Of a DNA stretch of 34,861 bases, positions 2-23,666 are shown in pieces; position 1 is the first letter of the stretch, and every line of letters begins with the position of its first letter. Under the pieces are notes generated by a model, which saw only the letters and a program-made list of their open reading frames with translations, was not told where the DNA came from and ran no database searches. The stretch comes from Clostridia bacterium. GTDB lineage: Bacteria; Bacillota; DULZ01. The stretch is from contig DULZ01000037.1 in NCBI GenBank assembly GCA_012840125.1, forward strand, positions 1 through 34,861. Reading direction: 5' to 3'. The position numbers and the translations under genes are program-made.

Positions 2-1642
2 CAATTTCCGGAGATCAGCCGGCCGGTGGCGGATTCCTGGCTGCGGGCCCGGATGAGGGGTGTAGACCCGTACAAAGTTGTGAAGAAACCGCAATTGACT
101 GAACAGGAATTACAAGAAATCCGTCATGATAAAGAGCCCTTGATTGCGGCTACGGAAGCATTAATTAACAGGCTGAAAAACATCCTGAATGATTGTGGCT
201 ACATACTTTACCTGATTGATCCGGACGGGATTATCCTCGTGCATGAAGGTGACTGGAAAAGGAACCGTCCCTTTCCTGAATACGGGTCCAGGGTTGGGAT
301 CATCGCCAACGAGGAAACCATCGGCACCAACGCCCATGAATTGAGTATTAATTTAAAAAGGCCGGTCCAGCTGTTGGGACCGGAACATTATGCGGTAGTT
401 TTTCAAAACAATATCGCTTCCGCCGCCCCGGTGTTTGATGCAGATCGCCAAGTGGCAGGCGCTTTGTTGTTGTTGAGTAGGCCCTGCGAGGGAGAAAAGG
501 ATGGTTTTTTAACCCGCCAGTGCAAGAGTGAGCTGGCCCTGGTGGTTTCCATGGCGTCTGCTGTGGCGGCTGAAATGGTCCTCTGCCGGCCCCGGGTGAA
601 GGTGCAAACCAGCAGCATGGGGAAGGACAAATCCGTTTTGCCCGCCGTGAAGGAACGCCGGCCCGCCGGCTCCGCCGGTGCCGTGTTCAACAAAATCATC
701 GGTGAAAGCGAAGCCATCAAAAAGGCGGTGAAATTGGCCAGGAAATTTGCCCAATCCCGGGAAAACATCTTGCTGACCGGGGAAAGCGGTACGGGCAAGG
801 AGATTTTTGCGGAAGCTATTCATCAATACTATTGTCCTGACGGCCCTTTCGTGGTGGTTAACTGTGCGGCCATGCCCAGGGATTTGATCGCCAGTGAGCT
901 GTTCGGTTACGAAGGCGGTAGTTTTACGGGAGCGGAGCGAAGGGGCAGGCCGGGGAAAATTGAGCTGGCCGACGGGGGCATCTTCTTCCTGGACGAGATC
1001 GGGGACATGCCCCTGGAACTGCAGCCGGTTTTATTAAGGGTACTGGAAAACAAGCAGGTGACCAGGATCGGCGGGTGTACGGCCAAGAAAGTGGATTTCC
1101 GGTTGATTGCCGCCACGAACCAGAACCTTTACCAGATGGTGCTGGAAAACAAATTCCGGGAAGACCTCTATTACCGCTTGTCCGTGCTGAACATCCATAT
1201 CCCGCCCCTGCGCGAAAGGAAAGAAGATATCATCCTGCTGTGCGACTACTTTATTGAGGAATACTGCCAAGAAGCCGGTCGCCCCCGGCCCCAGCTCAGC
1301 CGGGAAACCGTCGAATACATTTTAGCTTACGACTGGCCCGGCAATGTACGCCAGTTGAAAAATGCCATGATCTATGCCGTGAATGTTTGCCAAGGCCAGA
1401 TCATTACGCCCCAGGACCTGCCTCAAAACATCATCCTGGATAAAGTGAGGCACCGGCTGTATCCCAGCCACTTCCCCGTGGACAGTATCGGGGAACTGCT
1501 GCAAATCAGCCATTTGGAGAAGACGGCCATCCAGACGGCTTTGACCTATACTAATCGCTGTGTGCCGGAAGCGGCGAAATTACTGGGTTTGAGCCGGTCC
1601 ACTTTGTATCGCAAAATTAAAGAGTATAATATTACTCTATAA
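2..1642 (+). CDS. Sigma-54-dependent transcriptional activator (AcoR-like), 5' partial
   Basis: Enhancer-binding activator for sigma-54 RNA polymerase. Numbering from the in-frame GTG at 26: a GAF-like sensor with an IGTNAHEL motif near 99-106 and EHY near 120-122; an AAA+ domain with Walker A GESGTGKE (252-259), loop-1 motif GSFTGA in place of the usual GAFTGA (298-303) and Walker B IFFLDEIGD (319-327); and a C-terminal Fis-type helix-turn-helix with AAKLLGLSRSTLYRKI. The frame stays open to base 2 and reads FPEISRPVADSW before the GTG. That resembles the conserved start region of AcoR-type regulators, so the true start lies left of the window. No receiver domain is visible. It converges on the corrinoid gene with a shared terminator. 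The only convincing sigma-54 promoter found is at 15977-15992, upstream of the Mo/W operon, so this is a candidate regulator of it. The effector is unknown. Confidence 0.93.
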   Translation, partial: QFPEISRPVADSWLRARMRGVDPYKVVKKPQLTEQELQEIRHDKEPLIAATEALINRLKNILNDCGYILYLIDPDGIILVHEGDWKRNRPFPEYGSRVGIIANEETIGTNAHELSINLKRPVQLLGPEHYAVVFQNNIASAAPVFDADRQVAGALLLLSRPCEGEKDGFLTRQCKSELALVVSMASAVAAEMVLCRPRVKVQTSSMGKDKSVLPAVKERRPAGSAGAVFNKIIGESEAIKKAVKLARKFAQSRENILLTGESGTGKEIFAEAIHQYYCPDGPFVVVNCAAMPRDLIASELFGYEGGSFTGAERRGRPGKIELADGGIFFLDEIGDMPLELQPVLLRVLENKQVTRIGGCTAKKVDFRLIAATNQNLYQMVLENKFREDLYYRLSVLNIHIPPLRERKEDIILLCDYFIEEYCQEAGRPRPQLSRETVEYILAYDWPGNVRQLKNAMIYAVNVCQGQIITPQDLPQNIILDKVRHRLYPSHFPVDSIGELLQISHLEKTAIQTALTYTNRCVPEAAKLLGLSRSTLYRKIKEYNITL

Positions 1643-1730: not shown

Positions 1731-2369
1731 TTAAGCGACCCAGTTTTTACAGATTTTCACACCTTCCGCCGCATTAGTGGTAAAAGCATCGGCGCCAATT
1801 TTCCGGCAGGCACTTTCCGTCACCGGGTTCCCGCCGATGATGACTTTGACCGTATCCCGCAAGCCTGCTTCTTCCAGGGCTTTCACTGTTTTCTCCATGG
1901 AATCCAGGGCGAGGGTTAACACACCGCTCATACCGACGATCTGGGGTTGGACTTCCTTAACCTTGTCTACAAAAGCCCCCGGCTTTTGATCAATGCCCAA
2001 GTCGTAAACTTCGAAACCGGCGGCTTCAGCCATGTTCCGGAAAATGTTTTTGCCGATATCGTGCAGGTCCCCCTCCACGGTGCCTAAGACAATTTTACCT
2101 ATCTTTTTCGCGTCGCTGCTGCCTAAAACGGGCTTAAGCATCTGCATCACTCTGGTCAGCAGGTCACCGGCATAAATCAAATCGGCCACATAGTATTCGC
2201 CCTGCTCGAACAAGTCCCCCACTTTGGTCATTCCCTGCTGGCAGCTGTTTACCACCAGTTGAGCCTCTTCCGGCGTGGGGTTGCCCGCCACGAACTCCCC
2301 GATCATGGCCAGCAACTGTTCCTCGTTGAGATCTCCTAAAGCTTGGACCAGGGCCTGTAAATCAATCAT
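1731..2369 (-). CDS. Methyltransferase cognate corrinoid protein (MtaC/MtbC/MttC type)
   Basis: A 212-aa cobalamin-binding methyl carrier. The N-terminal half is the helical cap (MtaC N-terminal-like). The C-terminal half is a Rossmann-type B12 domain with the lower-ligand motif DLHDIG in GTVEGDLHDIGKN, then GMSGVLTLALDSM and VIIGGNPVT, which form the nucleotide-tail pocket. An open frame extends upstream to 2477, but the ATG at 2369 follows a textbook GAGGAGG site and gives the family's normal length and start (MIDLQ). In known systems such proteins are methylated by a substrate-specific methyltransferase and demethylated by a UroD-fold MtaA-like protein. A UroD-family gene sits in the divergent operon, but no MtaB/MttB homologue is in the window. 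Expression is probably controlled from the palindromic intergenic region shared with the operon at 2707. Confidence 0.93.
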   Translation of the reverse strand: MIDLQALVQALGDLNEEQLLAMIGEFVAGNPTPEEAQLVVNSCQQGMTKVGDLFEQGEYYVADLIYAGDLLTRVMQMLKPVLGSSDAKKIGKIVLGTVEGDLHDIGKNIFRNMAEAAGFEVYDLGIDQKPGAFVDKVKEVQPQIVGMSGVLTLALDSMEKTVKALEEAGLRDTVKVIIGGNPVTESACRKIGADAFTTNAAEGVKICKNWVA

Positions 2370-2533
2370 TTGTCCCAACCTCCTCAAAAGTTTGCTCTGC
2401 CGTCCCTGTGTCATGACCCAAGCCACGGGACTTGGTATTACTATCATGGCGAGGTTACACCACCTCAACCGCATCAAACGTTACTGCTGGGGCCTCGGTT
2501 TTCAAGGGATCCCATCTTACTTATGAAGGGAGA

Positions 2534-2706: not shown

Positions 2707-3879
2707 TTGAAAACCGAAGACCCAGCGGCAAGGCTTGGAGCGGCTTACGAGGTGTTGGCCCGGGCTTACCGCAACCGGCATGAGCGGGCCCTTCAGTGGA
2801 AGGAACAGGGTGGACGGGTGCTGGCATGCCTGGGAAGCGATGTGCCGGAAGAGTTGGTCCTGGCCGCCGGCTACTTGCCCGTCAGGGTGTGCGGCGAACC
2901 GGGGCAGGCCACTCCCCTGGCGGACCGCTACTTGGAACTGGCTTTTGAGCCCACGGCCCGGTCCAAATTCAACCGCCTACTTGACGGTACTTATGCTTAT
3001 GCGGACGGCTTGGTAATATCCAACTCAACGGATGTGCTGGTGCGTCTTTACTTTTATCTCAGGGAACTGCATCGTGTCGAGCCGGAAATCGAACTTCCTC
3101 CTTTTTACTTCTTAGATCTACTGTTCATGCCGTCCATGATCAGCAGTGAATACAATCTGGGGACTTTAAGGAGCTTTCAGAGGATTTTGGAAGAATGGAG
3201 CGGGCAGGAAATTACTCCGGACCAATTACAGGAGGCCATCCGGTTATGTAATGAAAACAGGGCACTGCTGCGCCAATTGGCGGAGCTTCGCCGGGGAACT
3301 GCTCCGAGAGTAACCGGGGTGGAAGCCCTTACCATCATCGGTGCCTCCTTGCTCATGCCCAAAGAAGAACATAATCGCCTGCTTTGTGAAATCTTAGACA
3401 AAGCTCGCCGGCTGCCTCCTTTAGAGGGGGTCAGGCTCTTTGTTACCGGCAGCGTCCATGAGCAAACGGATTTCTATGAATTGATCGAAGCTTGCGGCGG
3501 GATTGTTGTCGGGGAAGACCATGACTGGGGTAACCGTCACTTCCATACCGATGTGGCTACCGATGTGGAGCCCCTGGCAGCCATCCGGGATCGCTATCAC
3601 CTGCGGCTGGCGTCTCCGAACAAGCACCTGGTGTCGCACCGGGTCAGGGCACTCCTGGACCAAGTGCAAGAATGCGGCGCTGAGGGAGTTGTCTTCTTCA
3701 TGCGAACCTATGATGAAGCCTCCACTTGGGATTACCCGGAGCAGCATCAAATACTGGAAAGTTTGGGGATTCCCAGCAAGTTGTTTGTCAGGCAGCCCTA
3801 CACACTGGCCAACCGCCGCCAGTTGATGGAAGACATCACGGAACTGGTAGCCCAGGTCCGGGCCGGGAGGAGGGAGTGA
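2707..3879 (+). CDS. 2-hydroxyacyl-CoA dehydratase/benzoyl-CoA reductase-like subunit lacking Fe-S cysteines
   Basis: A 390-aa protein of the HgdB/BcrB-BcrC/FldBC family. Family members form heterodimers that carry [4Fe-4S] clusters for radical dehydration of 2-hydroxyacyl-CoA or for ring reduction. The fold is recognisable from VLACLGSDVPEELVLAAGY near 38-56, an ADGLVISNSTDVLVRLY segment near 99-115 and FMRTYDEASTWDYPE near 331-345. Where active subunits have Cys in the second and third of these segments, this one has Ser107/Thr108 and Thr334/Tyr335. The first cluster Cys region (near 80-90) also lacks Cys. It probably binds no cluster and serves as a structural or substrate-binding partner of the next gene. 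The start is TTG at 2707 behind AAGGAGATGA. It ends 3 bases before the next start, so the two are translationally linked. Confidence 0.85.
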   Translation: MKTEDPAARLGAAYEVLARAYRNRHERALQWKEQGGRVLACLGSDVPEELVLAAGYLPVRVCGEPGQATPLADRYLELAFEPTARSKFNRLLDGTYAYADGLVISNSTDVLVRLYFYLRELHRVEPEIELPPFYFLDLLFMPSMISSEYNLGTLRSFQRILEEWSGQEITPDQLQEAIRLCNENRALLRQLAELRRGTAPRVTGVEALTIIGASLLMPKEEHNRLLCEILDKARRLPPLEGVRLFVTGSVHEQTDFYELIEACGGIVVGEDHDWGNRHFHTDVATDVEPLAAIRDRYHLRLASPNKHLVSHRVRALLDQVQECGAEGVVFFMRTYDEASTWDYPEQHQILESLGIPSKLFVRQPYTLANRRQLMEDITELVAQVRAGRRE

Positions 3880-3882
3880 GGT

Positions 3883-5190
3883 ATGACGGCTAAGGAAGAG
3901 GCAGGAAAAAAAGTGCCGGAAAAAGGACAGCGCAGTGTCAAAAGGCTTCAAGTTGCTAAGGAAGCCAGCGCTTATCAAAAAGAATGGTTTATGGGACTTG
4001 GTCAAAGAGTGGCTGCCGGTGAGCCCTTCGCCTACCTCAATGCCGATGTGCCCATGGAAATCTTTCGAGCCATGGACATTCCCTTTGTGGTGAACCAGTG
4101 GTGGGCGTCCATTTGTGCGGCAAAGCAAATGACACCATATTACTTTAACTTGTTGAAAGAAGAGAATTACCGGGACGACGTTTGCCAGTACTGCGTGACG
4201 GCCCTGGCCTGCTCCTTCGATCCGAAACCGGAGGAAGGGCCTTGGGGCGGGCTGCCCAAGCCCTCCATTGCGGTGACCAGGTTAACCTGCGATGCCCAGG
4301 GGAAGATTTTTGAGTTGCTGGCCAAGCGGTACGGCGCCAGTTTTTATCCCATGGAAAACACCATTCCCTTAATTGCCCCTGACAACTGGTGGGAAAAGGC
4401 CCCGTATCGCTGGGAAGAGCTGTATGAACCGCGCCGGTTGGATTTTGCCGTGGAGGACTTAAAGGGGCTGATCCGCTTCTTGGAATTGACCACCGGACGG
4501 GCATTCAGCATGACCAGGTTCGAAAAAGTGATGGACCTGATCAACCAGCAAGAGGAGTATTACCGGCTGACCCGTGATTTAATTGCCCAAACCGTCCCGG
4601 CTCCGGTCACCATCGCCGATGTGGTGGGTCCGGTGATGCAGGCCCAGTGGCAGCGGGGCACCGAATGGGCGGTGGAAAACGCCCGCAAGCTGTACCTGGA
4701 AATCAAGGATTTAGTGGACCGTGGTGCAGCCGCTTGTCCCAATGAACGGATCCGGTTGGGCTGGATCGGCAGGGGATTATGGTTTAACCTCGGGTTTTAC
4801 CAGTATTTCGAAGAAAAATACGGTGCCGTTTTCGTCTGGTCCATGTATCTTGCCATGGGAGCCGACGCATATATCCGCTACGGCGGTGACCCCCTGCGGC
4901 GGTTGGCTTCGCGGTTTATCGGCATGGAAGATTTCCTGCACATGCCGCCCTGGAACAACCAGTGGTTTTTGAAAGAAGCCAAGAACAATCAACTGGACGG
5001 AGTGGTTTACCTGGTCCCGGAAAACTGCATGCAGGCCGTCGAAGGCTCCTACTTCATTGCTAAAGCATTGGAGGATGCCGGTATCCCGGTGCTCATGCTG
5101 AGAGCGGATCCCGTGGATGCGCGCAAATGGAACCAAGCAACCATGACGGCAGCGGTGGAAAGTTTTATCAAAGAGAGACTAGGAGGGTAG
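3883..5190 (+). CDS. 2-hydroxyacyl-CoA dehydratase/benzoyl-CoA reductase-like subunit, cysteines retained
   Basis: A 435-aa partner of the preceding gene in the same family. It keeps plausible [4Fe-4S] ligands: Cys101, Cys104 and Cys110 in CQYCVTALAC, Cys136 in RLTCDAQGK, and Cys382 in VPENCMQAVEGSY. The last matches the family position that typically reads FCxxxxYxxP. The N-terminal ~30 residues are charged and look like an extra tail. The ATG at 3883 follows a purine-rich GGAGGAGGGAGTGAG inside the end of the upstream gene. Classical dehydratases need an ATP-dependent activator (HgdC/FldI type) with an ASKHA fold. None is encoded here, so it is either supplied elsewhere or the reaction differs. 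Placement directly before a family III CoA-transferase mirrors the FldABC and HadABC organisation. The substrate is unknown. Confidence 0.87.
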   Translation: MTAKEEAGKKVPEKGQRSVKRLQVAKEASAYQKEWFMGLGQRVAAGEPFAYLNADVPMEIFRAMDIPFVVNQWWASICAAKQMTPYYFNLLKEENYRDDVCQYCVTALACSFDPKPEEGPWGGLPKPSIAVTRLTCDAQGKIFELLAKRYGASFYPMENTIPLIAPDNWWEKAPYRWEELYEPRRLDFAVEDLKGLIRFLELTTGRAFSMTRFEKVMDLINQQEEYYRLTRDLIAQTVPAPVTIADVVGPVMQAQWQRGTEWAVENARKLYLEIKDLVDRGAAACPNERIRLGWIGRGLWFNLGFYQYFEEKYGAVFVWSMYLAMGADAYIRYGGDPLRRLASRFIGMEDFLHMPPWNNQWFLKEAKNNQLDGVVYLVPENCMQAVEGSYFIAKALEDAGIPVLMLRADPVDARKWNQATMTAAVESFIKERLGG

Positions 5191-5194
5191 TTGC

Positions 5195-6409
5195 ATGTCC
5201 AGGTCTGTCTTAGAAGGCATTAAAGTCCTTGATCTTACCCAGTTCGAATCCGGTACGGTGTGTACGGAAACCCTGGCTTGGATGGGAGCCGAAGTATTAA
5301 AAGTGGAGCGTCCCAGAACCGGTGAAGCCGGGCGCTATTCCGTCGAAGAGCCCGGTGTGGATACCTACGGTTTTATCATTCTCAATGCCAATAAGAAGTC
5401 CATTACTTTAAACCTCAAGAGCGAAAAAGGAAAGGAGATACTCTGGCAGCTGATCGATAAGGTGGATGTATTCATTGAAAATATGGGACCGGGATCCATT
5501 GAACGCCTGGGTTTCGGTTATGAAGCAGTGAGCCGCCGCAATCCACGCATAGTGTACGCCCAGATCAAGGGTTTCGGTACGGACGGCCCTTACCGGGATT
5601 ACCCGGCCTTTGACCCTATTGCTCAGGCTGTAGGCGGTTCAGCCAGCATGACCGGTGAACCTGACGGGCCACCCATGCAGCCGGGCCCCAACCTGGCCGA
5701 CAGCGGTGCCGGGTATTTGACGGCGTTGAGTATTGTGGGAGCCCTGTACCAGCGGTACTCTACCGGTAAAGGGCAGCATATTGAAGTGGCCATGCAAGAT
5801 GTGGTCATCGGTTTTTGTCGTTCTGCCTGGGAGCAGCATTACCGGAACAATCAGGCAGCTCCCCGGGTTGGCAATGGTATGCCCCTGGAGCCGGTGGCCC
5901 CGGCCAATATGTATCCCTGTAAACCGGGTGGTCCTAATGACTATGTCCATATCTATTGTTCACGTCATCCGGGCAGTCATCACTGGCGCACCTTGTGCAA
6001 GATCATTGGGCACCCGGAGGCTGCCGATGATCCCCGCTTTGCTACCCCACGTTCCCGCTACCTGCATCGCCATGAGATTGATGCCATGATCAGCAATTGG
6101 ACCCGCCAATATACCAAATTTGAAGCGATGGAGATTCTCGCCAAGGCCGATATTCCAGCCGGCGCTGTTTTAGATACCATGGACATTACGAATGATCCCT
6201 ATTTGCGTAAGAGAGGGATTATGGCTGAAATTGAGCACCCGCAGCGAGGTAAAATGCTCATCCCCGGTTTTGCACCAAAGATGTCCGGCAACCAGGTCCG
6301 GATTACTTGCTCACCGGGGCTGGGCGAGCATAATGAGGAGATCTACCGGGGCCTTTTAGCCATCTCCCAGGAGGAGTATCGCCGGCTTCAAGAAGAGGGA
6401 GTCATCTAA
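5195..6409 (+). CDS. Family III (CaiB/BaiF) CoA-transferase
   Basis: A 404-aa enzyme, normal for the family, that moves CoA from an acyl-CoA donor to a free carboxylate. N-terminal LEGIKVLDLTQFESGT and GAEVLKVERP are the family's CoA-binding start. The catalytic aspartate is Asp169 in GPNLADSGAG, the same number as in formyl-CoA transferase. The C-terminal region keeps the family pattern (TNDPYLRKRG, then GFAPKMSG). The ATG lies behind TAGGAGGG, only 4 bases after the previous gene. It most likely activates the acid imported by the TRAP system to the CoA thioester used by the two dehydratase-like subunits, in the manner of FldA or HadA. The exact acid cannot be inferred from sequence. Confidence 0.92.
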   Translation: MSRSVLEGIKVLDLTQFESGTVCTETLAWMGAEVLKVERPRTGEAGRYSVEEPGVDTYGFIILNANKKSITLNLKSEKGKEILWQLIDKVDVFIENMGPGSIERLGFGYEAVSRRNPRIVYAQIKGFGTDGPYRDYPAFDPIAQAVGGSASMTGEPDGPPMQPGPNLADSGAGYLTALSIVGALYQRYSTGKGQHIEVAMQDVVIGFCRSAWEQHYRNNQAAPRVGNGMPLEPVAPANMYPCKPGGPNDYVHIYCSRHPGSHHWRTLCKIIGHPEAADDPRFATPRSRYLHRHEIDAMISNWTRQYTKFEAMEILAKADIPAGAVLDTMDITNDPYLRKRGIMAEIEHPQRGKMLIPGFAPKMSGNQVRITCSPGLGEHNEEIYRGLLAISQEEYRRLQEEGVI

Positions 6410-6445: not shown

Positions 6446-7585
6446 ATGGATACTAATCTGTATAATGCCAGGTTTGAGAGATTTCAAAAAGCCTACCATG
6501 TGGAAGTGCCGGACCGGATCCCCATCGAGGGGCAGTTTACTCCCACCTTTATGCTGGATTATTGCGGTTATTCTTTAAAGACATGGGATCCGGCCGTAGT
6601 GGACCGGGCCGTGGACCGGGTCCTCGGTGAATTCGACTATGATTACGTGCGGAGTATCTTTTACCGGTCACCTCAATATTTCATTCAACTCGGGGCGAAG
6701 ACTTTTGTGCAAAGCGAAGACGGGACAATGCAGCACCCGGATGTGCACGGGTTAGAGCCGGAGGAATACCCGGAGTTCATCGCTGATCCTTTTAAAACTA
6801 TCGTAGAAAAAATCGTGCCCCGTCTCTACACGGAATTGGCGAAACCGTATCCTTATAACGCCGTTGCTGTCGCGAAGGCAATTTATACGAACCACATGCT
6901 GCGGGAAAAATTTAAAGCCATTCAGGATAAGTACCGGGAAAAATACAGCATCCCTTATACCGGTGGGGGTATGCTGGCGGCACCCTTTGATTTCGTCGCT
7001 GATTTCATTCGCAGTTTCAGCGGCATCAGCATCGATATCCGGCGGCGGCCCGATCAAGTGGCGGCCGCTTGTGAAGCGGTGCTTCCCCTGCTAATTAAGA
7101 AAGGAATGTCCGGTCCTAACGGGATAACCAAAACGATTTCCATGCCTTTGCACATGGCTCCCTATTTAAAGGAAGCCGATTTTGAGAGATTTTACTGGCC
7201 CACGTTCAAGAAATTGTGCGATGTTATGACGGAAAATGGGTACTATCTATATATTTTCTTTGAGCAAGACTGGACCAGGTTCCTGGACTACCTGCAGGAA
7301 CTGCCCAAGGGCCGGATTTTGGCCAAGTTCGAATACGGGAATCCCAAGTTGATTAAAGAAAAATTGGGCAAGAACGTATGCATTTCAGGTTTGTACCCGG
7401 TGGAGCTGCTTAAGAACGGCACCAAACGAGAATGCATTGAAAAAGCCCAGGAGCTAATCGAGATCCTGGCTCCGGGAGGGGGATATATTTTCGGCCTCGA
7501 CAAATCGGTGATGAAAAAGAGCGACATTAATCCTGAAAACCTTAAGGCGGTTACCCAGTTTATCATTCGTGAAGGAAAGTACTAG
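6446..7585 (+). CDS. Uroporphyrinogen decarboxylase-family protein (putative corrinoid methyltransferase)
   Basis: A 379-aa TIM-barrel protein of the UroD superfamily. It resembles the MtaA/CmuA and O-demethylase branch more than haem-pathway HemE. Visible elements are an N-terminal VPDRIPIEGQ, a central ISMPLHMAPYL with a candidate zinc-ligand His, KNVCISGLYPVELL with a candidate zinc-ligand Cys, and the C-terminal PGGGYIFG turn. HemE function is unlikely because of the catabolic setting and the lack of its arginine-rich N-terminus. With the corrinoid protein divergently encoded nearby, the best inference is methyl transfer between substrate, corrinoid and tetrahydrofolate or thiol. Start ATG 6446 follows AGGAGGGG. 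It lies 36 bases after the CoA-transferase in the same operon. Confidence 0.83.
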   Translation: MDTNLYNARFERFQKAYHVEVPDRIPIEGQFTPTFMLDYCGYSLKTWDPAVVDRAVDRVLGEFDYDYVRSIFYRSPQYFIQLGAKTFVQSEDGTMQHPDVHGLEPEEYPEFIADPFKTIVEKIVPRLYTELAKPYPYNAVAVAKAIYTNHMLREKFKAIQDKYREKYSIPYTGGGMLAAPFDFVADFIRSFSGISIDIRRRPDQVAAACEAVLPLLIKKGMSGPNGITKTISMPLHMAPYLKEADFERFYWPTFKKLCDVMTENGYYLYIFFEQDWTRFLDYLQELPKGRILAKFEYGNPKLIKEKLGKNVCISGLYPVELLKNGTKRECIEKAQELIEILAPGGGYIFGLDKSVMKKSDINPENLKAVTQFIIREGKY

Positions 7586-7797: not shown

Positions 7798-8280
7798 ATG
7801 AGTAAGTTCGGCAAGTTTTATGACGGCTTAATGCGCTTTACCCTGTATTTGTCCAGTATCGGGCTGTTCTTGCTGGTGGTACTGGTGACGGCGAACACCA
7901 TTGGACGCGGCTTCCGGCATCCCATTCCCGGAGGGTATGATTTAATTACTCTTAGCGCGGCGGTATGCGGCAGCTTGTCCATAGCCTATTGCACGAAACT
8001 CAAAGGGCATGTCCATGTTGATATCGTCGTCAACGTGTTATCGCCGCGGGGTAAGAAGATACAAAAGATTATCTGCGGCATTATGGGTATTGCTCTATGG
8101 TGTCTTATTGCTTGGCAGAGTGTGAAGGTCTTCCTCACCCGGTTGACTACTGAAGTGACGGAAGTGTTGAAAATACCCTATGCCCCCTTTAGATTCCTCT
8201 TTGTGTTTTCCATGATACTCACGGTAGTGATCTTAGTTGAACAATTAATCGAAGACATGCAAGGGGGTAAAGAAGCATGA
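7798..8280 (+). CDS. dctQ: TRAP transporter small permease (DctQ)
   Basis: A 160-aa inner-membrane protein with four hydrophobic spans, typical of the small membrane subunit of tripartite ATP-independent periplasmic transporters. Family signatures are the first helix followed by NTIGRGF, the second span after GGYDLITLSAAVCGS, and KLKGHVHVDIVV before the third. It partners the large permease encoded next, with which it overlaps by 4 bases (ATGA). The ribosome site AAAAGGAGG precedes ATG 7798. These importers use an ion gradient to take up organic acids. Its place directly after the enzyme genes implies that the operon's substrate is an imported carboxylate. Confidence 0.92.
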   Translation: MSKFGKFYDGLMRFTLYLSSIGLFLLVVLVTANTIGRGFRHPIPGGYDLITLSAAVCGSLSIAYCTKLKGHVHVDIVVNVLSPRGKKIQKIICGIMGIALWCLIAWQSVKVFLTRLTTEVTEVLKIPYAPFRFLFVFSMILTVVILVEQLIEDMQGGKEA

Positions 8281-9578
8281 GTCCAGTCACTATAGGGATT
8301 ATCGGCATGATCGCCTTGATTGCCTTGATGGCATACGGCATGCCTGTAGGTTTCGCGATGGCTCTTGTCGGCTTTGTCGGCATGGCGATACTCATCAGCC
8401 CAACGGCCGCCATCACTAAACTGGCTACCACTCCTTTTGGTTATGTGGCCAGCTATGACTATGCCGTTGTACCGATGTTTATCTTAATGGCAAACATTAT
8501 TGTCGTTTCGGGACTTGGAACTAATCTATTCAATATTGCTGAAAAGTTCCTTGGTCGCTTCAACGGAGGCATGGCCATGGCCACTACCGGCGGTTGTGCA
8601 GGTTTTGCCGCCATCAGTGGTTCTTCTTTGACCACCTCCTTGACCATCGGTACTGCAGCAATCCCGGAAATGAAGAGATACAAATATGACCTGGATTTTG
8701 CCGGGGCGACGATCGCCGCCAGCGGAACCCTGGGGCTTCTCATCCCCCCCAGTACCGCCTTGATGCTCTACGGGATTGTTACCGGTAACTCCATTAAGGA
8801 TTTATTCCTGGCCGGGTATATTCCGGGTATCCAGCAGGCTTTATTCTATCTCTTGGTTATTTACCTGCTGACCAAAATCAATCCGGCTCTTGGGCCCCGT
8901 GGTCCTAAATACAGTTGGAAGGAAAAGTGGGATGCACTGAAACAAGGTGGAGAAATACTTCTCTTGATTACTTTTGTGATTTTGGGCTTGTTTATGGGGT
9001 GGTTTACGGCCACGGAAGCCGGGGCGGTCGGGACCGCCGGCGCCCTTTTGATAGTCTTGCTGCGCAAGCGGTTGACCTGGGAAGGTTTCCTGAAAGCGAT
9101 TAGCGATACGGTGAGGGTATCCGGTATGTACTATGTAATCATTATCGGTGCCCAATTGTTCATGAACTTTACAACAGTTACTACCCTACCGACCATGTTG
9201 GCCCATGGGATTCAGAATTCCGGACTGTCCCCCCTAATGGTTGTTTTCCTGATTGTGGTGATCTATCTCTTCCTCGGTATGTTTATCAACGGTACGGCGA
9301 TGATGCTTTTGACTCTGCCGATTTTCTACCCGTTAATCATAGACCTTGGCTTTAATCCCATTTGGTTTGGTGTCTTGGCTACGAGGGTAAGTGAAACGGG
9401 CCTTTTGACCCCGCCGGTTGGTTTGGGCGTTTACAGTATGAAAGCTATTATGCCGGACCTGAATCTGGCGAGAGTGTTCAAATTCACAATGTACTTTGTG
9501 GTTACCGATATCATCCATGCGATACTGCTTGTGCTCTTCCCGGGGATGGTCACATTCTTACCGGACATAGCGAGGTAA
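8277..9578 (+). CDS. dctM: TRAP transporter large permease (DctM)
   Basis: A 433-aa polytopic membrane protein, the ion-coupled transport channel of the TRAP system. It has about 12 hydrophobic segments and the DctM/GntP-like signatures VPMFILMANI, GCAGFAAISGSS, ASGTLGLLIPPSTALMLYG and TEAGAVGTAGALL. The C-terminal half repeats the same topology, with FINGTAMMLLTLPIFYPLI and TGLLTPPVGLGVY. Length and order are normal and no break is seen. It is translationally coupled to dctQ by an ATGA overlap. The solute-binding partner gene follows after 133 bases. Confidence 0.95.
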   Translation: MSPVTIGIIGMIALIALMAYGMPVGFAMALVGFVGMAILISPTAAITKLATTPFGYVASYDYAVVPMFILMANIIVVSGLGTNLFNIAEKFLGRFNGGMAMATTGGCAGFAAISGSSLTTSLTIGTAAIPEMKRYKYDLDFAGATIAASGTLGLLIPPSTALMLYGIVTGNSIKDLFLAGYIPGIQQALFYLLVIYLLTKINPALGPRGPKYSWKEKWDALKQGGEILLLITFVILGLFMGWFTATEAGAVGTAGALLIVLLRKRLTWEGFLKAISDTVRVSGMYYVIIIGAQLFMNFTTVTTLPTMLAHGIQNSGLSPLMVVFLIVVIYLFLGMFINGTAMMLLTLPIFYPLIIDLGFNPIWFGVLATRVSETGLLTPPVGLGVYSMKAIMPDLNLARVFKFTMYFVVTDIIHAILLVLFPGMVTFLPDIAR

Positions 9579-9711
9579 AGTGTCTTCCCGGGAGCCGTAG
9601 AAGGGGGTGTGAGACGGTTCCAAATGCCGCTTACTGAGTTTCCGGTTAGATAGGAGAGGGCTGGCTGGTTTGGAAAACTGACTCTAACTTTGACCAAAGG
9701 GGTGTATCACA

Positions 9712-10818
9712 GTGACAAAAGTCAGGGGTAATTGGTTGCTCACGATTATCTTAAGTGCTGTGCTCATTCTGACCGGTGTGGCTTTAGCCGGGTGTTCCGG
9801 CGGCTCCGATGGCTCTGCTGACACTTCCTCCGGTGACAATGACGCGGCGGAGCAGGAAGTGATCACGCTGACGTTTACTTCTTTCAGCACTTTGCCCCAA
9901 ACTGCTGCCAAAGTGGACCATGAGTTCATTAAACGAATTGAAGAAGTGACCAATGGTAGAGTGAAGTTCCAGTATTACGGCGGGGGCACCCTAATTAGCG
10001 GTAATGATGCTGCAGCTGAACTAGGCAGCGGGGTAGCGGATTTCGGTATCCCGCGGGTGGGATATTCTCCCCATGGTTATGATTTGAATAAAGCATATAT
10101 GACTTTTATGTTCAACTGCGATCCCTATGATGCAGAAATGGAATTGGATATTGCCCATCAAATTTTTGCACAGTACCCGCAGTTTGACCAGGAGTTCTTG
10201 GAGAATGGGATGGTCCCCTACGCCGGTAATGCCAGCGGTACTTCCCGGGCCCTGTTTACCACCAAACCGATCAAATCTTTAGATGACCTGAAAGGCGCGT
10301 CCATCCGTGCCACCGGAAACTGGGCGGAGATCGTGAAAGGATTAGGTGCCGAGCCGGTTAACATTCCTATTTCTGAAACATACTTAGCGCTGGAAAAAGG
10401 TACCGTTGACGGTGTCATCGGCCTGGCCACCTTCACCCTGGAAGCTGACAAACTGGCGGAAGTGGTCAAGTATTGTTATGACTTAAAAGTCAACTTTGCA
10501 CCGATTTATGAATGGGCCTTCTGCAAGGCCACTTGGGACAAGCTGCCCGATGACATTAAGCAGGTCTTTATTGACAACAGGGACTTCCTGGAAATGAAAT
10601 CCGTAGAAATCAACGTTGCCGATACTCTACCGGCGGAAGAGTATGCCAAGAGTTTAGGTGTGCAATTCTTAGAGCTCAGTGATGAAGACCAAGCCAAACT
10701 ATATGATGTTATTGATAAAGTGAACAGGCAGGTGGCGGCAGACCTGGACGCCAAGGGAATTCCCGGCACGGAGATTTATGAAGCAACGCAAAAGCTGATT
10801 AAGGAATACAAAAAGTAG
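9712..10818 (+). CDS. dctP: TRAP transporter solute-binding lipoprotein (DctP)
   Basis: A 368-aa extracytoplasmic binding protein. The N-terminus has basic residues, a hydrophobic core and a lipobox ending LAGC, so it should be a membrane-anchored lipoprotein as expected in a Gram-positive. The mature part follows the DctP pattern: FTSFSTLPQT, a mid-domain GASIRATGNWAEIVKGLGA, then NIPISETYLALEKGTVDGVIG, whose region in characterised members holds the carboxylate-binding arginine (here probably that of SIRATG). Start is GTG 9712 with AAAGGGG upstream. The ligand cannot be deduced, but DctP proteins nearly always bind a carboxylate. Binding proteins are commonly expressed more than the permeases, and this gene has its own 133-base leader. 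Confidence 0.93.
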   Translation: MTKVRGNWLLTIILSAVLILTGVALAGCSGGSDGSADTSSGDNDAAEQEVITLTFTSFSTLPQTAAKVDHEFIKRIEEVTNGRVKFQYYGGGTLISGNDAAAELGSGVADFGIPRVGYSPHGYDLNKAYMTFMFNCDPYDAEMELDIAHQIFAQYPQFDQEFLENGMVPYAGNASGTSRALFTTKPIKSLDDLKGASIRATGNWAEIVKGLGAEPVNIPISETYLALEKGTVDGVIGLATFTLEADKLAEVVKYCYDLKVNFAPIYEWAFCKATWDKLPDDIKQVFIDNRDFLEMKSVEINVADTLPAEEYAKSLGVQFLELSDEDQAKLYDVIDKVNRQVAADLDAKGIPGTEIYEATQKLIKEYKK

Positions 10819-11013: not shown

Positions 11014-12771
11014 TTATGGTTCATGCTTAGAAAAAGCTTCCGAAACAGGTTTGATACAGCCAAAAGGACAGGTTTGGGCGCAGGCGCCGCATTTGATGCA
11101 CAGCCGGTCGTCGACGAAAAAGCGGACGGTGCCCTTCCGGTTCTTTACTGCGCCGGAAGGACAGACCAAATAACAGCAGCGGCACTGTTTACATTTCCCC
11201 TGGAGAATTTCAAAACGAATGAGATCCTTGCACGCGATGGTGGGACAGTATCCCGCGGCGTGGGCGGCAAATTCTGAGCGGAAATACCGCAGCCCGGATA
11301 GAACGAGCTGCGCCGGAGAACAACCGGTGGGGCACCGGGTTTCCCGGGCCACCTGCCGGGCTATTGCTTCGATTTCTTCGAGCACTCCCCCATAGCCCTG
11401 CCCTTGGGTCAGCAGGGAGAGTTTGGTCTTTAATGCAGCGATACCTGTCTCGCAGGCAGGGCTGCCTGCACAGTACCTCGGGGTTTGCGTATTAATCGCG
11501 GCCAGAGTCCGGTCCACGATACAGCGGTGCCTGTCCAATACCACCAGCTCATGGAACATGAAGCCGGTAGTGTTGGCGCTTTTGGTGGTTTGGTTGTCAA
11601 AGGGAAGAAAGGTACCGTTAGGGAACTCCACTTGTAAAGCTTTCCAAGAGCCGGATGATTTATTGGTTATGGTTTGGACCAGCGCCGGCAAGTCTTCCTC
11701 CGCCGGCACTTCGACGAAACCGTGGCTTTTGAGGTCACCGCTTAAATAAAAAACGCGGGTATCCGGTTGCTCAGGCCCGGAGCCGGCGGCCCGGCGTACC
11801 AGCCCCGGGATGTGGGCCAGGGGCTGCAAGGGTTCCAGGGTAAGGCCGTGCGGTGCCGTCGCACCACCGGAGTGAGTTTGGTTATGGGCCACCGCTATTT
11901 CCAGACCATAATCCGTCCCCAAGATGTGGTCGCCCACCAAGCCGTATTCCCTGGCGGTGGCGATGGCCCGCTCCAGGAGGGCGGCGGCCAGGGCGTGTTT
12001 GGCGGGTATGTAAATCACTGCTTGCGAAAAGCCCAAAGCATAGCCTGTTAAGAGCAGGCTTTCCAACAAGTGGTGGGGGTTGTTTTCCACCAGGGCCAGT
12101 TCCAGGGGAGTGAGCTCTGTGGAACTGCCAACAGTCATGCATGGGGCCTCAAGAGGAGCGGGAGGCTGCCGGTCATCAAGGTTCAGCAAGGGGGAGGCGG
12201 TAATTAACTGCCGCAGCTTTTCCGGCGAGAATTGTTGTAACGCATCCCGTAGGGTAAAATACCCGCCGGTGGCGATATATTCGGCGATGTCTTGGGGATC
12301 GATGAAACCCCAGCTGTGGCTGATAGACCGCCGTTGGAGCTTGAAGAAACGAGCCAGGGAGGTTTGGCGGTCGCCGGTGATGCTTAAATCCGAGAAGCCC
12401 TGCAGCCTGCCCGGTTCTTTTTCCACTGCGGTTAACCACAGGTAAGAGGTAGGTTGATGTCCCTCCACCAGCCGGATTACGTGCCAAAGGGATTTACCGT
12501 CCACCCGGCCGAAGAAATAATGCCTCCCATCGGGCAGGCGCACATGGATTAACGGCTCGGCAAAGCAGGCGCCTAAGCAGCCTACGCCGGTTACCTTGAC
12601 AGGGAGCGCCCAGTCCCGGCGGGCGGCCAGCTTGTCGCGCAAAAGACCTGCTCCCTTGGCCAATCCGCAGGAAGAGGTGCCCACGTTAATCCTAACGGCA
12701 GAAGAGGGACATAAGCTCCGGCGACCGGTTTCCGCTAAGTGTTCCAGTATACCTGGGTTGTACTGAACCAT
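11014..12771 (-). CDS. NuoF/HymB-like iron-sulfur protein lacking the FMN/NADH site, with C-terminal 2[4Fe-4S] ferredoxin
   Basis: A 585-aa protein laid out like HndC/HymB-type NADH-binding subunits. It has an N-terminal thioredoxin-like [2Fe-2S] part (GTSSCG, then GVGCLGAC), a middle with FIDPQDIAEYIATGGYF and LLESLLLTGYALGF, the subunit-type cluster region (YCAGSPACETG, TRCPTGC, SGLRYFRSEF) and two [4Fe-4S] ferredoxin motifs (CKQCRCCYLVCP, CIKCGACAQTCP). What should be SGLRGRGGAGFPTG reads SPLLNLDDRQPPAP. The GAGAYICGEETAL segment is also absent, so FMN and NADH binding look lost while every cluster region remains. It is probably an electron relay for the Mo/W enzyme rather than an NADH dehydrogenase. 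ATG 12771 has GGAGGTTAGGTAG upstream. It is the last gene of the operon. Confidence 0.85.
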   Translation of the reverse strand: MVQYNPGILEHLAETGRRSLCPSSAVRINVGTSSCGLAKGAGLLRDKLAARRDWALPVKVTGVGCLGACFAEPLIHVRLPDGRHYFFGRVDGKSLWHVIRLVEGHQPTSYLWLTAVEKEPGRLQGFSDLSITGDRQTSLARFFKLQRRSISHSWGFIDPQDIAEYIATGGYFTLRDALQQFSPEKLRQLITASPLLNLDDRQPPAPLEAPCMTVGSSTELTPLELALVENNPHHLLESLLLTGYALGFSQAVIYIPAKHALAAALLERAIATAREYGLVGDHILGTDYGLEIAVAHNQTHSGGATAPHGLTLEPLQPLAHIPGLVRRAAGSGPEQPDTRVFYLSGDLKSHGFVEVPAEEDLPALVQTITNKSSGSWKALQVEFPNGTFLPFDNQTTKSANTTGFMFHELVVLDRHRCIVDRTLAAINTQTPRYCAGSPACETGIAALKTKLSLLTQGQGYGGVLEEIEAIARQVARETRCPTGCSPAQLVLSGLRYFRSEFAAHAAGYCPTIACKDLIRFEILQGKCKQCRCCYLVCPSGAVKNRKGTVRFFVDDRLCIKCGACAQTCPFGCIKPVSEAFSKHEP

Positions 12772-12795
12772 CTACCTAACCTCCACAAAAGAGAA

Positions 12796-12828
12796 GCCAT
12801 AATGGCTGCCCCAGGCAGCCATTATGGC
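12796..12828 (-). other. Perfect 15-bp intergenic hairpin inside the redox operon
   Basis: Arms 12796-12810 and 12814-12828 with a 3-base loop lie in the 77-base gap between the ferredoxin-subunit gene and the NuoF-like gene. There is no T-run, so it is not a standard terminator. It may protect or process the mRNA, or adjust expression of the last gene. Confidence 0.7.
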
Positions 12829-12848
12829 AAGCACCAAGGTACAGGAAT

Positions 12849-13184
12849 CTAGGGGATGAAAAGGGCCATTTTCCTTCCTTTAGCGTTCATTTTTTCAATC
12901 AGTTCTTCTACGGGACCGTACTCCATGCATTGACCGAGGCAGTGGTGGACACAGGAGGGCTTTTTCCCCTGGGCCACCCTCTCGCCGCAGAGGTCGCAGA
13001 GTGAAGTGGGAACGGGAACATAATTCCATTCCCACTTTTCATCGTCAATTTTCCAAGGCCCAACTTCCATCAACTTAATGCCCCATTTTCCTTTGGGAAT
13101 CTGCTTTTCCATTTTACAGGCTACTTCACAGCTGTGGCAGCCGGTGCAGTATTCGTAATCAATCAGCAAACCGTTTACTGACAT
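12849..13184 (-). CDS. Small ferredoxin-type electron-transfer subunit (DmsB/HybA-like, short)
   Basis: A 111-aa iron-sulfur protein with eight cysteines arranged for two [4Fe-4S] clusters: CTGCHSCEVAC near residues 13-23, then CDLC and SCVHHC in the second half. It is like the beta subunits of DMSO-reductase-family enzymes but with only one pair of clusters. It should pass electrons between the catalytic subunit, whose gene ends 48 bases upstream, and the NuoF-like protein. The open frame extends to 13232, but ATG 13184 directly follows GGAGGGAGCTCA and begins MSVNGLLIDYEYCTGC, the normal start of such subunits. No Tat signal is seen, so a cytoplasmic location is expected. Confidence 0.88.
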   Translation of the reverse strand: MSVNGLLIDYEYCTGCHSCEVACKMEKQIPKGKWGIKLMEVGPWKIDDEKWEWNYVPVPTSLCDLCGERVAQGKKPSCVHHCLGQCMEYGPVEELIEKMNAKGRKMALFIP

Positions 13185-13232
13185 TGAGCTCCCTCCATTC
13201 ATGTAGTAGTTTTCCGCCGTGGGGTGACACAC

Positions 13233-15476
13233 TTAAATGCCTTCGTCAGTTTTGGTGACTTTACAAATGACGCTCTTCAGCGGTGCGCCGAAACCGAGTT
13301 TCCCGATGTGCTTGTGCGGGACCATGGTGTTGATGTTGGATTCCCACACGCCGAACAAGCTGGGTTCTTCACCGGGTTTTTCCGGGTACCACCAGCCGTG
13401 GGTAGCATGGACCACTTTCGGGTGAATCGTGGGTGTCAGCTTGGCCTTCAGTTTTGCTTTACCGAACATGTTCTCAATGATGACCCAATCCCCGTCTTTA
13501 ATGTTGTATTGAGCGGCAGTTTCCGGGTGGATCTCCAGCTCGGGCCAGGGATCGATTTCTCTTAAGGTCGGTATTTGCCTGTGTTCTGAATGGAAGGAGG
13601 TAAACTTTCTCGCGCCGGTAGTGAGGATCAACGGGTACTCCTTCGCTAGTTCAGGTGTGCTGTACGGGCTGTAATGGGGTTCCTGGTAGTACGGCAGCGG
13701 ATCGTCGCCCCACTGTTCAAAGAGAACGGAACGCAGCTCCACTTTACCGGTGACGGTGTTAAAGCCCGGCTCCCCGTCATCTCTGAGCAAGCCTTTTTCA
13801 TATTTCCTGTATTCCACCGGGGTCTGGTAGACGCCCATTTCTCGCAAGTCGTTGAAACTAATCCCCAGCTCGGGTTCAAGTTGTTTAGTGAAGAAGTCTT
13901 CCACGCTGTCATAAGGCCACATGTGCGGGTACAGTTTCTTGCCTAATTCAATGCAGACTTCGATGTCAGACTTGGTTTCACCGACGCGCAGGGCTTCATT
14001 GATGGCCCCCAGGAAGATGGCGTTCCGGCCGAAGTGGGTGAGTACCACACCGTCCATTTCGGCGAAGGTGGGCAGCGGCAAGAACACGTCTGCAAAAGCC
14101 ATGGCGGTGGGGGTCATGAAGGTATCCTGTACCACGCAGAATTCTAATGATTGCAGTGCCCTATACCAGCGGTCCGGCTGGGTGGAGCAGGTGGGGGTGA
14201 TGAAGTTGCTGCTGTTGAACCATCCCATCCTGAGCTTGTAGGGCTTGCCGGTCTCCAGGCAATCCAGAGTCACGTCCGGGTGAGTGGTGGCCAAAGCATT
14301 GGCCAGGGCAGGATATTCCTTGGCACCGATTCTTTTCTCCCATAATTCCTCGGACAGGTTGTAACGGGTTTCAATGCGCCACTTGCCCAGCAAGGCCGCT
14401 CTGGGACCTAAGGTAATGCCGCCGGGGATATCCAGGTTGCCGGTAATGGCTACGATGGACAGGAGGGCATGTCCCAGCTGCACGCCGTTGGGGTTGGTGT
14501 CCACGGCTAATCCCCATTGAATCGGGCAAGGTTTGTTGGTAGCAATGATCCTGGCTACTTCGATGATTTTTTCTTTCGGTACCCAGGTGATTTCCGCCAC
14601 TTTTTCCGGCGGGTATTCCTGGACACGCTGCTTTAAGTCCTCGAAGCCGAAGCACCATTTGTCGACGAATTCCTTATCATAGAGTTCTTCGTTGATGATG
14701 ACATGGAGCAGGCCTAGAGCCAAAGCCGTGTCGGTGCCCGGTCTTAGCTGCAATACGTGTTCCGCCCGGCTGCCCAGCCAGGTGATTCTCGGGTCCACAT
14801 GGATGATCTTGGTGCCTCGCTTCATCATGTCGATGAGGGAGTGACCGTAGAAACCGTCGGGGTTGGACATTAAGGGGTTCTTACCCCAAACGACGATGTA
14901 TTTGGGCAACTGGTAATTGGGGTTGTCATAGCGATCCGGGAAGTGCCCGGCAAAGTCGATTTCCGGGTAGCCGGCGCCCAGGATGTAGTCGGTGATAGCA
15001 CACCTGGGGCCGTAGCAAGACCAACCGCTCAGGGGATAGCAGACGTTGGGTGTGCCCAGGGAGGCAAATCCTAACGGGTAGTAGTACAAGCAGGCTTGTC
15101 TACCGGTGCCGCCGAAAACGATAATGGATTCGGCGCCGTAGTTCTCAGTGTAATACTTGACCTTCGGAACGATAATGTCCCAGGCTTCATCCCAGGAGAT
15201 TCTTTGCCACTTATTCTCCCCGCGCTTGCCCACTCTTTTCATGGGGTAGACAATTCGCTGGGGATGGTGGACGTATTCAGGCAGCGACAAGCACCTGATG
15301 CAGAGCCGGCCTTGGCTGATGGGATGCTCTTCGTCCCCTTCGACTTTAATCAGCTTGCCGTTCTTGACATGGAGTTTCATGCCGCAGCCGACGGGGTGGT
15401 CACCCGGCGGGGACCAACCGCAGGTTCTCACGATATATTCGCCGTCAGCAATTTCCTTTTTCCATTGTTTATCCAT
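13233..15476 (-). CDS. Mo/W-bisPGD oxidoreductase, DMSO-reductase superfamily (acetylene hydratase/BamB-like)
   Basis: A 747-aa catalytic subunit carrying a bis-pyranopterin Mo or W centre and one N-terminal Fe-S cluster. The cluster motif reads Cys19-x6-Asp26-x4-Cys31-x27-Cys59, so one usual cysteine ligand is Asp26. Cys154 in GWSCYGPRC sits where the metal-ligand Cys of acetylene hydratase and similar enzymes lies. Pterin-domain segments include KNPLMSNPDGF, IIHVDPRITW and RPGTDTALALGLLHVI. The C-terminal barrel carries LILTTGARKFTSFHSEH and HPETAAQYNIKDGDWV. Length fits the superfamily. There is no Tat signal, so it is cytoplasmic. Starts at ATG 15476 behind AAGGGTGG. No molybdenum or tungsten cofactor genes are in the window. 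The reaction cannot be assigned; a hydratase, hydroxylase or ring-reduction role linked to the CoA operon is possible. Confidence 0.9.
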   Translation of the reverse strand: MDKQWKKEIADGEYIVRTCGWSPPGDHPVGCGMKLHVKNGKLIKVEGDEEHPISQGRLCIRCLSLPEYVHHPQRIVYPMKRVGKRGENKWQRISWDEAWDIIVPKVKYYTENYGAESIIVFGGTGRQACLYYYPLGFASLGTPNVCYPLSGWSCYGPRCAITDYILGAGYPEIDFAGHFPDRYDNPNYQLPKYIVVWGKNPLMSNPDGFYGHSLIDMMKRGTKIIHVDPRITWLGSRAEHVLQLRPGTDTALALGLLHVIINEELYDKEFVDKWCFGFEDLKQRVQEYPPEKVAEITWVPKEKIIEVARIIATNKPCPIQWGLAVDTNPNGVQLGHALLSIVAITGNLDIPGGITLGPRAALLGKWRIETRYNLSEELWEKRIGAKEYPALANALATTHPDVTLDCLETGKPYKLRMGWFNSSNFITPTCSTQPDRWYRALQSLEFCVVQDTFMTPTAMAFADVFLPLPTFAEMDGVVLTHFGRNAIFLGAINEALRVGETKSDIEVCIELGKKLYPHMWPYDSVEDFFTKQLEPELGISFNDLREMGVYQTPVEYRKYEKGLLRDDGEPGFNTVTGKVELRSVLFEQWGDDPLPYYQEPHYSPYSTPELAKEYPLILTTGARKFTSFHSEHRQIPTLREIDPWPELEIHPETAAQYNIKDGDWVIIENMFGKAKLKAKLTPTIHPKVVHATHGWWYPEKPGEEPSLFGVWESNINTMVPHKHIGKLGFGAPLKSVICKVTKTDEGI

Positions 15477-16233: not shown

Positions 16234-16330
16234 GGGAGCGGATTGGGCCTGGTGGCTCGCCTGGACTTCAAATCCAGTGGGACGCAGTGGACCTGCGTTC
16301 GGTGAGTTCGATTCTCACACGTTCCCGCCA
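16234..16330 (+). tRNA. selC: tRNA-Sec (anticodon TCA)
   Basis: A 97-nt tRNA including encoded CCA. The acceptor GGGAGCG pairs with CGTTCCC with one G-U. The anticodon arm CTGGA-CTTCAAA-TCCAG is that of bacterial selenocysteine tRNA, with TCA at 16268-16270. A long extra arm (GGGACGCAG...CTGCGTTC type) and T arm GTGAG-TTCGATT-CTCAC complete the molecule. It reads UGA as selenocysteine with SelA, SelB and SelD, none of which are in this window. It has its own promoter and terminator and stands alone between unrelated genes. Confidence 0.96.
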
Positions 16331-23282: not shown

Positions 23283-23378
23283 GGAGAGATGGCTGAGTCT
23301 GGCTGAAGGCACTCGACTGGAAATCGAGTAGACGGGCTAAAACCTGTCTCGAGGGTTCGAATCCCTCTCTCTCCGCCA
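23283..23378 (+). tRNA. tRNA-Ser (anticodon GGA)
   Basis: A 96-nt class II tRNA with CCA encoded. Acceptor GGAGAGA/TCTCTCC, anticodon arm CTCGA-CTGGAAA-TCGAG giving GGA, a long variable arm (GACGGGC...GCCTGTC-like) and T arm GAGGG-TTCGAAT-CCCTC. It decodes UCC/UCU serine codons. Confidence 0.96.
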
Positions 23379-23399: not shown

Positions 23400-23666
23400 G
23401 CCGTGCTAGACGGAGAGGTAGCGGTGCTCTGTAACCCGCAATCCGCTATAGCGGGGTTGAATTCCTGCCTGCGGGTTGTATCCATGAGGACTGCCTCCGG
23501 TAAGTGGCGTTGAGGGTTGGGTCCTGTGCAACGAAAATTCATGAACCCCGTCAGGTCCGGAAGGAAGCAGCGGTAAGTGAAACCTTTCGTGTGCCCCAGG
23601 GTAGCCTGGCCTGAGTTAACTGCCGGAGTAACGCTTGGGGGTGCAATTCAAGGGTAGGTGCACGGC
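23400..23666 (+). ncRNA. ffs: Signal recognition particle RNA (long Firmicute type)
   Basis: About 267 nt. The termini GCCGTGC (23400-23406) and GCACGGC (23660-23666) pair to close the long rod. The conserved Ffh-binding helix 8, with GTCAGGTCCGGAAGG followed by AGCAGCGGTAAG, lies near 23550-23577, and the Alu-type 5' region (helices 2-4) is present as in Bacillus scRNA. It starts 22 bases after tRNA-Ser, so the two are probably transcribed together, and it precedes dnaX in the usual Firmicute order. Confidence 0.95.

Follow-up and report, generated by a model that had tools for sequence, protein, structure and literature searches.

A conserved HGD-D protein pair with cluster cysteines in only one subunit and its possible departure from radical chemistry

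Introduction

Can a pair of subunits of the benzoyl-CoA reductase/2-hydroxyacyl-CoA dehydratase (BCR/HAD) type work when cluster cysteines are present in only one of them? The BCR/HAD family is described as consisting of extremely oxygen-sensitive radical enzymes needing two clusters and an ATP-driven activator. The question was raised by the preliminary description of a 34,861-nucleotide stretch of DNA from a Clostridia bacterium (contig DULZ01000037.1; the whole stretch is called the window here), which pointed to two neighbouring HgdB-like subunits, A and B, with Fe-S cysteines in B only, and proposed a one-cluster mechanistic variant. It also held that characterised dehydratases carry clusters in both subunits, which agrees with the literature: one cluster is found per subunit, and the electron passes from the ATP-driven activator to the cluster of one subunit and then to that of the other, thioester-binding subunit (PMC8473912). 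Single-cluster mutants of BzdNO were reported to be unstable (PMC11971306). The fold and the family of the pair are already known, but searches of open-access papers gave no relevant description of cluster-free HGD-D proteins or of a CaiB-linked group, and a conserved branch lacking one cluster, in some members both, was not found in the papers searched.

Organization of the locus and predicted fold

Both ORFs were intact at the coordinates in Table 1, and both scored above the curated cut-off of the Pfam family PF06050 (HGD-D, 28.4 bits). They lie in the same frame, B beginning one codon past the stop of A, with a Shine-Dalgarno-like stretch for each (2691-2696 for A, about 3866-3875 for B). 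Selenocysteine read-through at the TGA stop of A, which would fuse A to B, was considered because a tRNA-Sec is present in the window, and was rejected on inspection: B starts at an ATG with a ribosome-binding site of its own, and the fused orthologues have a long linker with no Cys at the place of the stop. Upstream of ORF A, a 16-bp perfect palindrome at 2654-2669, ATGTGAACGTTCACAT, is a possible regulator site.

Table 1. Coordinates of the A-B pair, its aligned residues, and related genes (window positions unless a locus is named)
Feature	Position	Strand	Description	Profile or conservation
Sigma-54 activator	26..1642	+		Profile matches
Corrinoid (B12-binding) protein	1731..2477	-	MtbC/MtgC-like; divergent from A	
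ORF A	2707..3879	+	390 aa, TTG start; BzdN/HadC-type HGD-D protein, no cluster cysteines	PF06050, 182 bits
A Gly43	2833..2835	+	BzdN Cys36 column, distal ligand	
A Glu81	2947..2949	+	BzdN Cys73 column, proximal ligand	Asp/Glu in 7 core members
A Thr108	3028..3030	+	BzdN Cys100 column, proximal ligand	
A Asp273	3523..3525	+	BzdN Cys263 column, distal ligand	
A Ser303	3613..3615	+	BzdN Cys293 column, distal ligand	
A Asp336	3712..3714	+	BzdN Cys327 column, proximal ligand	Asp/Glu in 13/13 family members
ORF B	3883..5190	+	435 aa, ATG start; BzdO/MbdO/HadB-type HGD-D protein, Cys101/104/136/382 present	PF06050, 170 bits
B Gln72	4096..4098	+	Column of BzdO catalytic acid Glu65 (role: PMC11971306)	
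B Cys101-x-x-Cys104	4183..4194	+	Cys101, conserved ligand; Cys104, subfamily-specific	
B Cys136	4288..4290	+	BzdO Cys128 column	
B Cys382	5026..5028	+	BzdO Cys380 column	
Class III (CaiB/formyl-CoA transferase type) CoA-transferase	5195..6409	+	404 aa; NLAD in catalytic-Asp motif region	PF02515, 366 bits
URO-D superfamily protein	6446..7585	+	Possible corrinoid methyltransferase	PF01208, 39 bits
TRAP transporter DctQ, DctM, DctP	7798..10818	+		Profile matches
Shortened sphingomonad A	L092:11012-11890			
Shortened sphingomonad A	L093:10991-11875			
Shortened sphingomonad A	L095:7021-7908			

The pair was modelled with AlphaFold as one read-through chain with the TGA taken as Gly, and the model was of moderate confidence (pLDDT 75.8, pTM 0.52). 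Its top Foldseek matches were BzdN, BzdO, HadB, HadC, and MbdON (TMt 0.76-0.86); with the double-cubane cluster protein DCCP among the leaders, the range was 0.70-0.86, followed by a sharp drop to nitrogenase-like folds. A-B is predicted to be a heterodimer in which both HGD-D subunits adopt the BCR/HAD fold, with a likewise predicted interface. The best solved relative of A was BzdN (E 2.3e-42). The NCBIfam equivalog cut-offs were missed for bzdN (146 against 454), HadC (89 against 700), HadB (62 against 750), and bzdO (59 against 449).

The orthologue family

Orthologues were taken from a Dethiobacter MAG (L031), a Bacillota MAG (L032), L090, the partial L091, L077 from the window's own phylum, the Dehalococcoidia MAG L033, and L088 and L089 (two more genomes to which L033 led in the same phylum search). 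Further orthologues lie on plasmids of Novosphingobium, Croceicoccus, and Rhizobium, genera known to be aerobic. The pair formed a clade spanning Bacillota, Chloroflexota, and Alphaproteobacteria, and the B clade of the family stood apart from the reference rows used in the tree with 100/100 support. A and B were fused into a single ORF of 848-897 aa in L031, L032, and L090, and L091 held a partial fused ORF with its start masked. Fusion in three to four orthologues supports a 1:1 partnership of the subunits.

The plasmid proteins of Novosphingobium and Croceicoccus, annotated as "2-hydroxyacyl-CoA dehydratase family protein", belong to the same subfamily. They were 40-44% identical to window B and, like it, lay beside CoA-transferase and TRAP genes, whereas Cys382 was lost, the A subunit was only 292-295 aa long, and the hosts are aerobic. 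These shortened A subunits, annotated as "hypothetical protein", were recognised by the A profile, and one of them by the Pfam HGD-D profile. A P450 gene was found beside the family pair in L089, a Chloroflexota locus. The pattern hints at a link between cluster loss and oxygen.

Subunit A lacks the cluster cysteines

The [8Fe-9S] cluster of BzdN is held by Cys36, Cys73, Cys100, Cys263, Cys293, and Cys327 (PMC11971306). Alignment with BzdN (8S02) and HadC showed that A has no Cys at any of these six columns, while B has Cys101, Cys136, and Cys382 at its own ligand columns, and the early observation of Fe-S cysteines in only one subunit therefore stands. The Ser/Thr/Tyr replacements first placed at 107-108 and 334-335 were right as to the absence of Cys, but 334-335 should read 336, an Asp, and two of the proximal replacements, Glu81 and Asp336, are acidic. 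None of the 13 family A subunits had a Cys at the three proximal ligand columns, against all 6 references, so its absence from A is not due to chance, and the loss is conserved among the orthologues.

None of the six cysteines of A (41, 62, 181, 227, 263, and 323) falls at a ligand column. Cys41 lies two residues ahead of the BzdN Cys36 column, at a position that is also Cys in HadC, and Cys62 and Cys263 were not conserved across the family. The preliminary description would have been refuted by an alignment placing Cys41, Cys62, or Cys263 at the cluster position; this was not the outcome, and the three were rejected as substitute ligands because they are off the ligand columns and unconserved. 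The three distal cysteines (BzdN 36, 263, and 293) were kept only in the A subunit of L033 (L033:8995-10173) and in one A copy of L089 (L089:7509-8690), both without all three proximal ones; the B subunit belonging to this L089 copy has none.

Could A still hold a cluster through the non-Cys ligands Glu81, Asp273, and Asp336, giving two clusters after all? The Asp/Glu residues conserved at the Cys327 and Cys73 columns (Table 1) would fit such a site, but all six cysteines are replaced, three of them by Gly, Thr, and Ser, and most such positions are also lost in the sphingomonads. To our knowledge, no cubane with Asp-only ligation exists, and we consider this arrangement very unlikely. That A is simply a decaying gene, as the loss of family-defining residues might suggest, is hardly credible: the ORFs were intact in all complete loci, and A is fused with B in three to four. 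A was under purifying selection (L090/L091 dN 0.027, dS 0.137), and pseudogene decay was rejected since dN/dS was near 0.2 where dS was unsaturated. Because electrons enter through the cluster of one subunit (PMC8473912) and A is without cluster cysteines, the window pair would have no entry cluster. A may act as a structural partner or as one that bears carboxylates.

Subunit B retains a candidate cluster site

The [4Fe-4S] cluster of BzdO is held by Cys95, Cys128, Cys380, and a water, with Glu65 and His131 alongside (PMC11971306). The three B cysteines named above align with the ligands of BzdO, HadB, and MbdO. Cys104, which the preliminary description had not singled out, forms a CxxC motif that is absent from the reference proteins and was found in every family member that retains Cys101. 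Cys110, in contrast to these members of the originally proposed set Cys101/104/110/136/382, is unlikely to be a ligand and was rejected, since four close orthologues have Ser or Glu in its place. The Glu65 and His131 columns of BzdO hold Gln72 and Gln139 in window B.

Cys101, Cys104, Cys136, and Cys382 were all retained in all six anaerobe-type B subunits with a complete sequence (window, L031, L032, L090, L077, and L033), a pattern of sequence conservation that suggests a functional, possibly redox-active cluster. In window B, Cys101/136/382 probably hold one [4Fe-4S] cluster, to which Cys104 might contribute a fourth ligand, and the subunit would bind the CoA thioester.

All B cluster cysteines were gone in L088, in both copies of L089, and in L094, where the QWxRGT/S region and other B residues were still conserved. 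The genes lie at L088:9978-11471 (B) and 12300-13709 (A), in two pairs in L089, and at L094:8784-11248. The L088 protein is 51% identical to window B, yet has no cluster Cys; in the sphingomonad B subunits, the equivalent of Cys382 was lost. In the B tree, in which several supports were below 95 and some branches were long, L088 fell inside the Cys-bearing group and not with L089 or L094; the cluster cysteines of B have therefore probably been lost completely more than once. That distant members have lost the cluster is no proof that the window enzyme works without one.

Among the known systems, the BZD-type class I benzoyl-CoA reductase BzdNO (8S02) has in common with the window pair the heterodimer, the fold, the subunit types, and the three Cys ligands of the O/B subunit, but differs in the six [8Fe-9S] cysteines missing from A, in Glu65 and His131 missing from B, and in the activator genes missing from the locus. 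(R)-2-hydroxyisocaproyl-CoA dehydratase, HadBC (3O3M), likewise shares the heterodimer, the fold (TMt 0.83-0.86), and the HadB ligand cysteines in B, whereas the HadC ligand cysteines are missing from A. Among solved structures, B was closest to the 3-methylbenzoyl-CoA reductase subunits MbdON (9G87; MbdO, E 3e-15), at low identity; in the window, the cluster of the partner subunit is missing, and the locus carries no genes for an activator partner. DCCP (6ENO) belongs to the same fold family but needs double-cubane cysteines, which are absent from A; the window's own genome holds a separate HGD-D protein with an activator at C101.

Gene neighbourhood and activators

In each of the 12 usable loci, a CaiB-type CoA-transferase stood next to the pair or close by. 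CapA-like genes occurred in nine family loci and CocE-type hydrolases in L089 and the sphingomonad loci. TRAP genes were close to the pair in the three sphingomonad loci, in L033 and L091, in L032 (distant type), and in the window itself. In L092 and L093, a double CaiB-type CoA-transferase of about 700 aa stands beside the HGD-D gene (L092:11887-13974, L093:11872-13974).

The constant pairing with CaiB would fit a non-catalytic A-B that binds CoA esters for the CaiB transferase or acts as its scaffold, as would the persistence of the fold in cluster-free members and in sphingomonads with A shortened to 292-295 aa. That many B residues and the anaerobe Cys set are strongly conserved suggests an active site instead, and we regard a non-catalytic role as improbable.

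In L031 and L032, a pair of tandem genes for PFL2/glycerol dehydratase-type glycyl radical enzymes lies near the fused A-B gene (L031:3-4427, L032:654-5630); none of these enzymes reaches the NCBIfam cut-off of a named equivalog. In L032 and L033, a glycyl radical enzyme activase is also present. Neither enzyme nor activase is found beside the window pair, so no common substrate follows, and reading one from the neighbours was rejected. A methoxylated acid would suit the methyltransferase-like neighbours in the window, but most other loci are without them, and no substrate is concluded from them.

No BadF/HgdC-type ATP-dependent activator (PF01869) was found in the window operon or in any other family locus. 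The window's own genome has two full-length activators elsewhere, at C101 (by the different HGD-D protein) and at C29 (by DUF2229/HGD-D proteins), and four further weaker or partial matches; activators were also found in the genomes of G246, L031, L032, and L033.

Proposed function of the pair

The asymmetry proposed at the outset is real and conserved, and the entry cluster is lacking. The one-cluster mechanism attached to it fared less well, as some relatives lack the B cluster cysteines, several occur in aerobes, Gln72 stands in the place of Glu65, and the loci are without an activator. The main rival to our reading is nevertheless such an asymmetric radical dehydratase or reductase, in which an activator from elsewhere reduces the B cluster directly, without a relay through A. 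The three site-differentiated ligands kept in all complete anaerobe-type B subunits would suit it, as would the activators in the window's own genome and in the related genomes. The possibly redox-active cluster suggested by the retained B cysteines speaks against our own reading; so do the two full-length activators in the genome, which could act in trans. Electrons are reported to enter first through the cluster of the other subunit (PMC8473912), and the missing locus activator, the loss of Glu65, and close B homologues without any cluster Cys all tell against this enzyme, which appears unlikely.

The lost entry cluster, the absence of a co-encoded activator, the Gln in place of the BCR acid, and the cluster-free near relatives together favour non-radical chemistry; likewise, the members in aerobes, cluster-free B, Gln72, and the lack of a locus activator make it more plausible that the ATP-driven radical mechanism was abandoned than that it runs with one cluster. 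We therefore lean, with about even confidence, towards a CoA-transferase-linked acyl-CoA enzyme on the BCR/HAD scaffold, without ATP-driven electron injection and with probably one [4Fe-4S] cluster in window B. A carboxylic acid would be imported by the TRAP transporter, loaded with CoA by the CaiB-type transferase, and converted by A-B. The conversion would most likely be an acyl-CoA elimination, hydration, or isomerisation and not an ATP-driven ketyl radical reaction, and the B cluster, if present, could act as a Lewis acid or a structural centre.

The branch has probably left the radical chemistry of its family. We tentatively suggest, with somewhat less confidence, that it gave up radical Fe-S chemistry in two steps, first the entry cluster of A and then the catalytic cluster of B, and that it persists, in anaerobes as well as in bacteria that respire oxygen, as a non-redox acyl-CoA enzyme coupled to a CoA-transferase, with conserved carboxylates in the former cluster pocket of A. 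If so, its members with one cluster and those with none would provide a natural series in which to study the role of each cluster, the annotation "2-hydroxyacyl-CoA dehydratase" in aerobes such as Novosphingobium would be misleading, and an undescribed acyl-CoA reaction linked to class III CoA-transferases would be hinted at.

Other features of the window

A tRNA-Sec lies at 16234-16326, near a minus-strand operon at 11014-15476 (molybdopterin oxidoreductase, ferredoxin, NuoF-like). Directly upstream of dnaX is a large bacterial SRP RNA (23401-23665), and another tRNA is found at 23283-23375.
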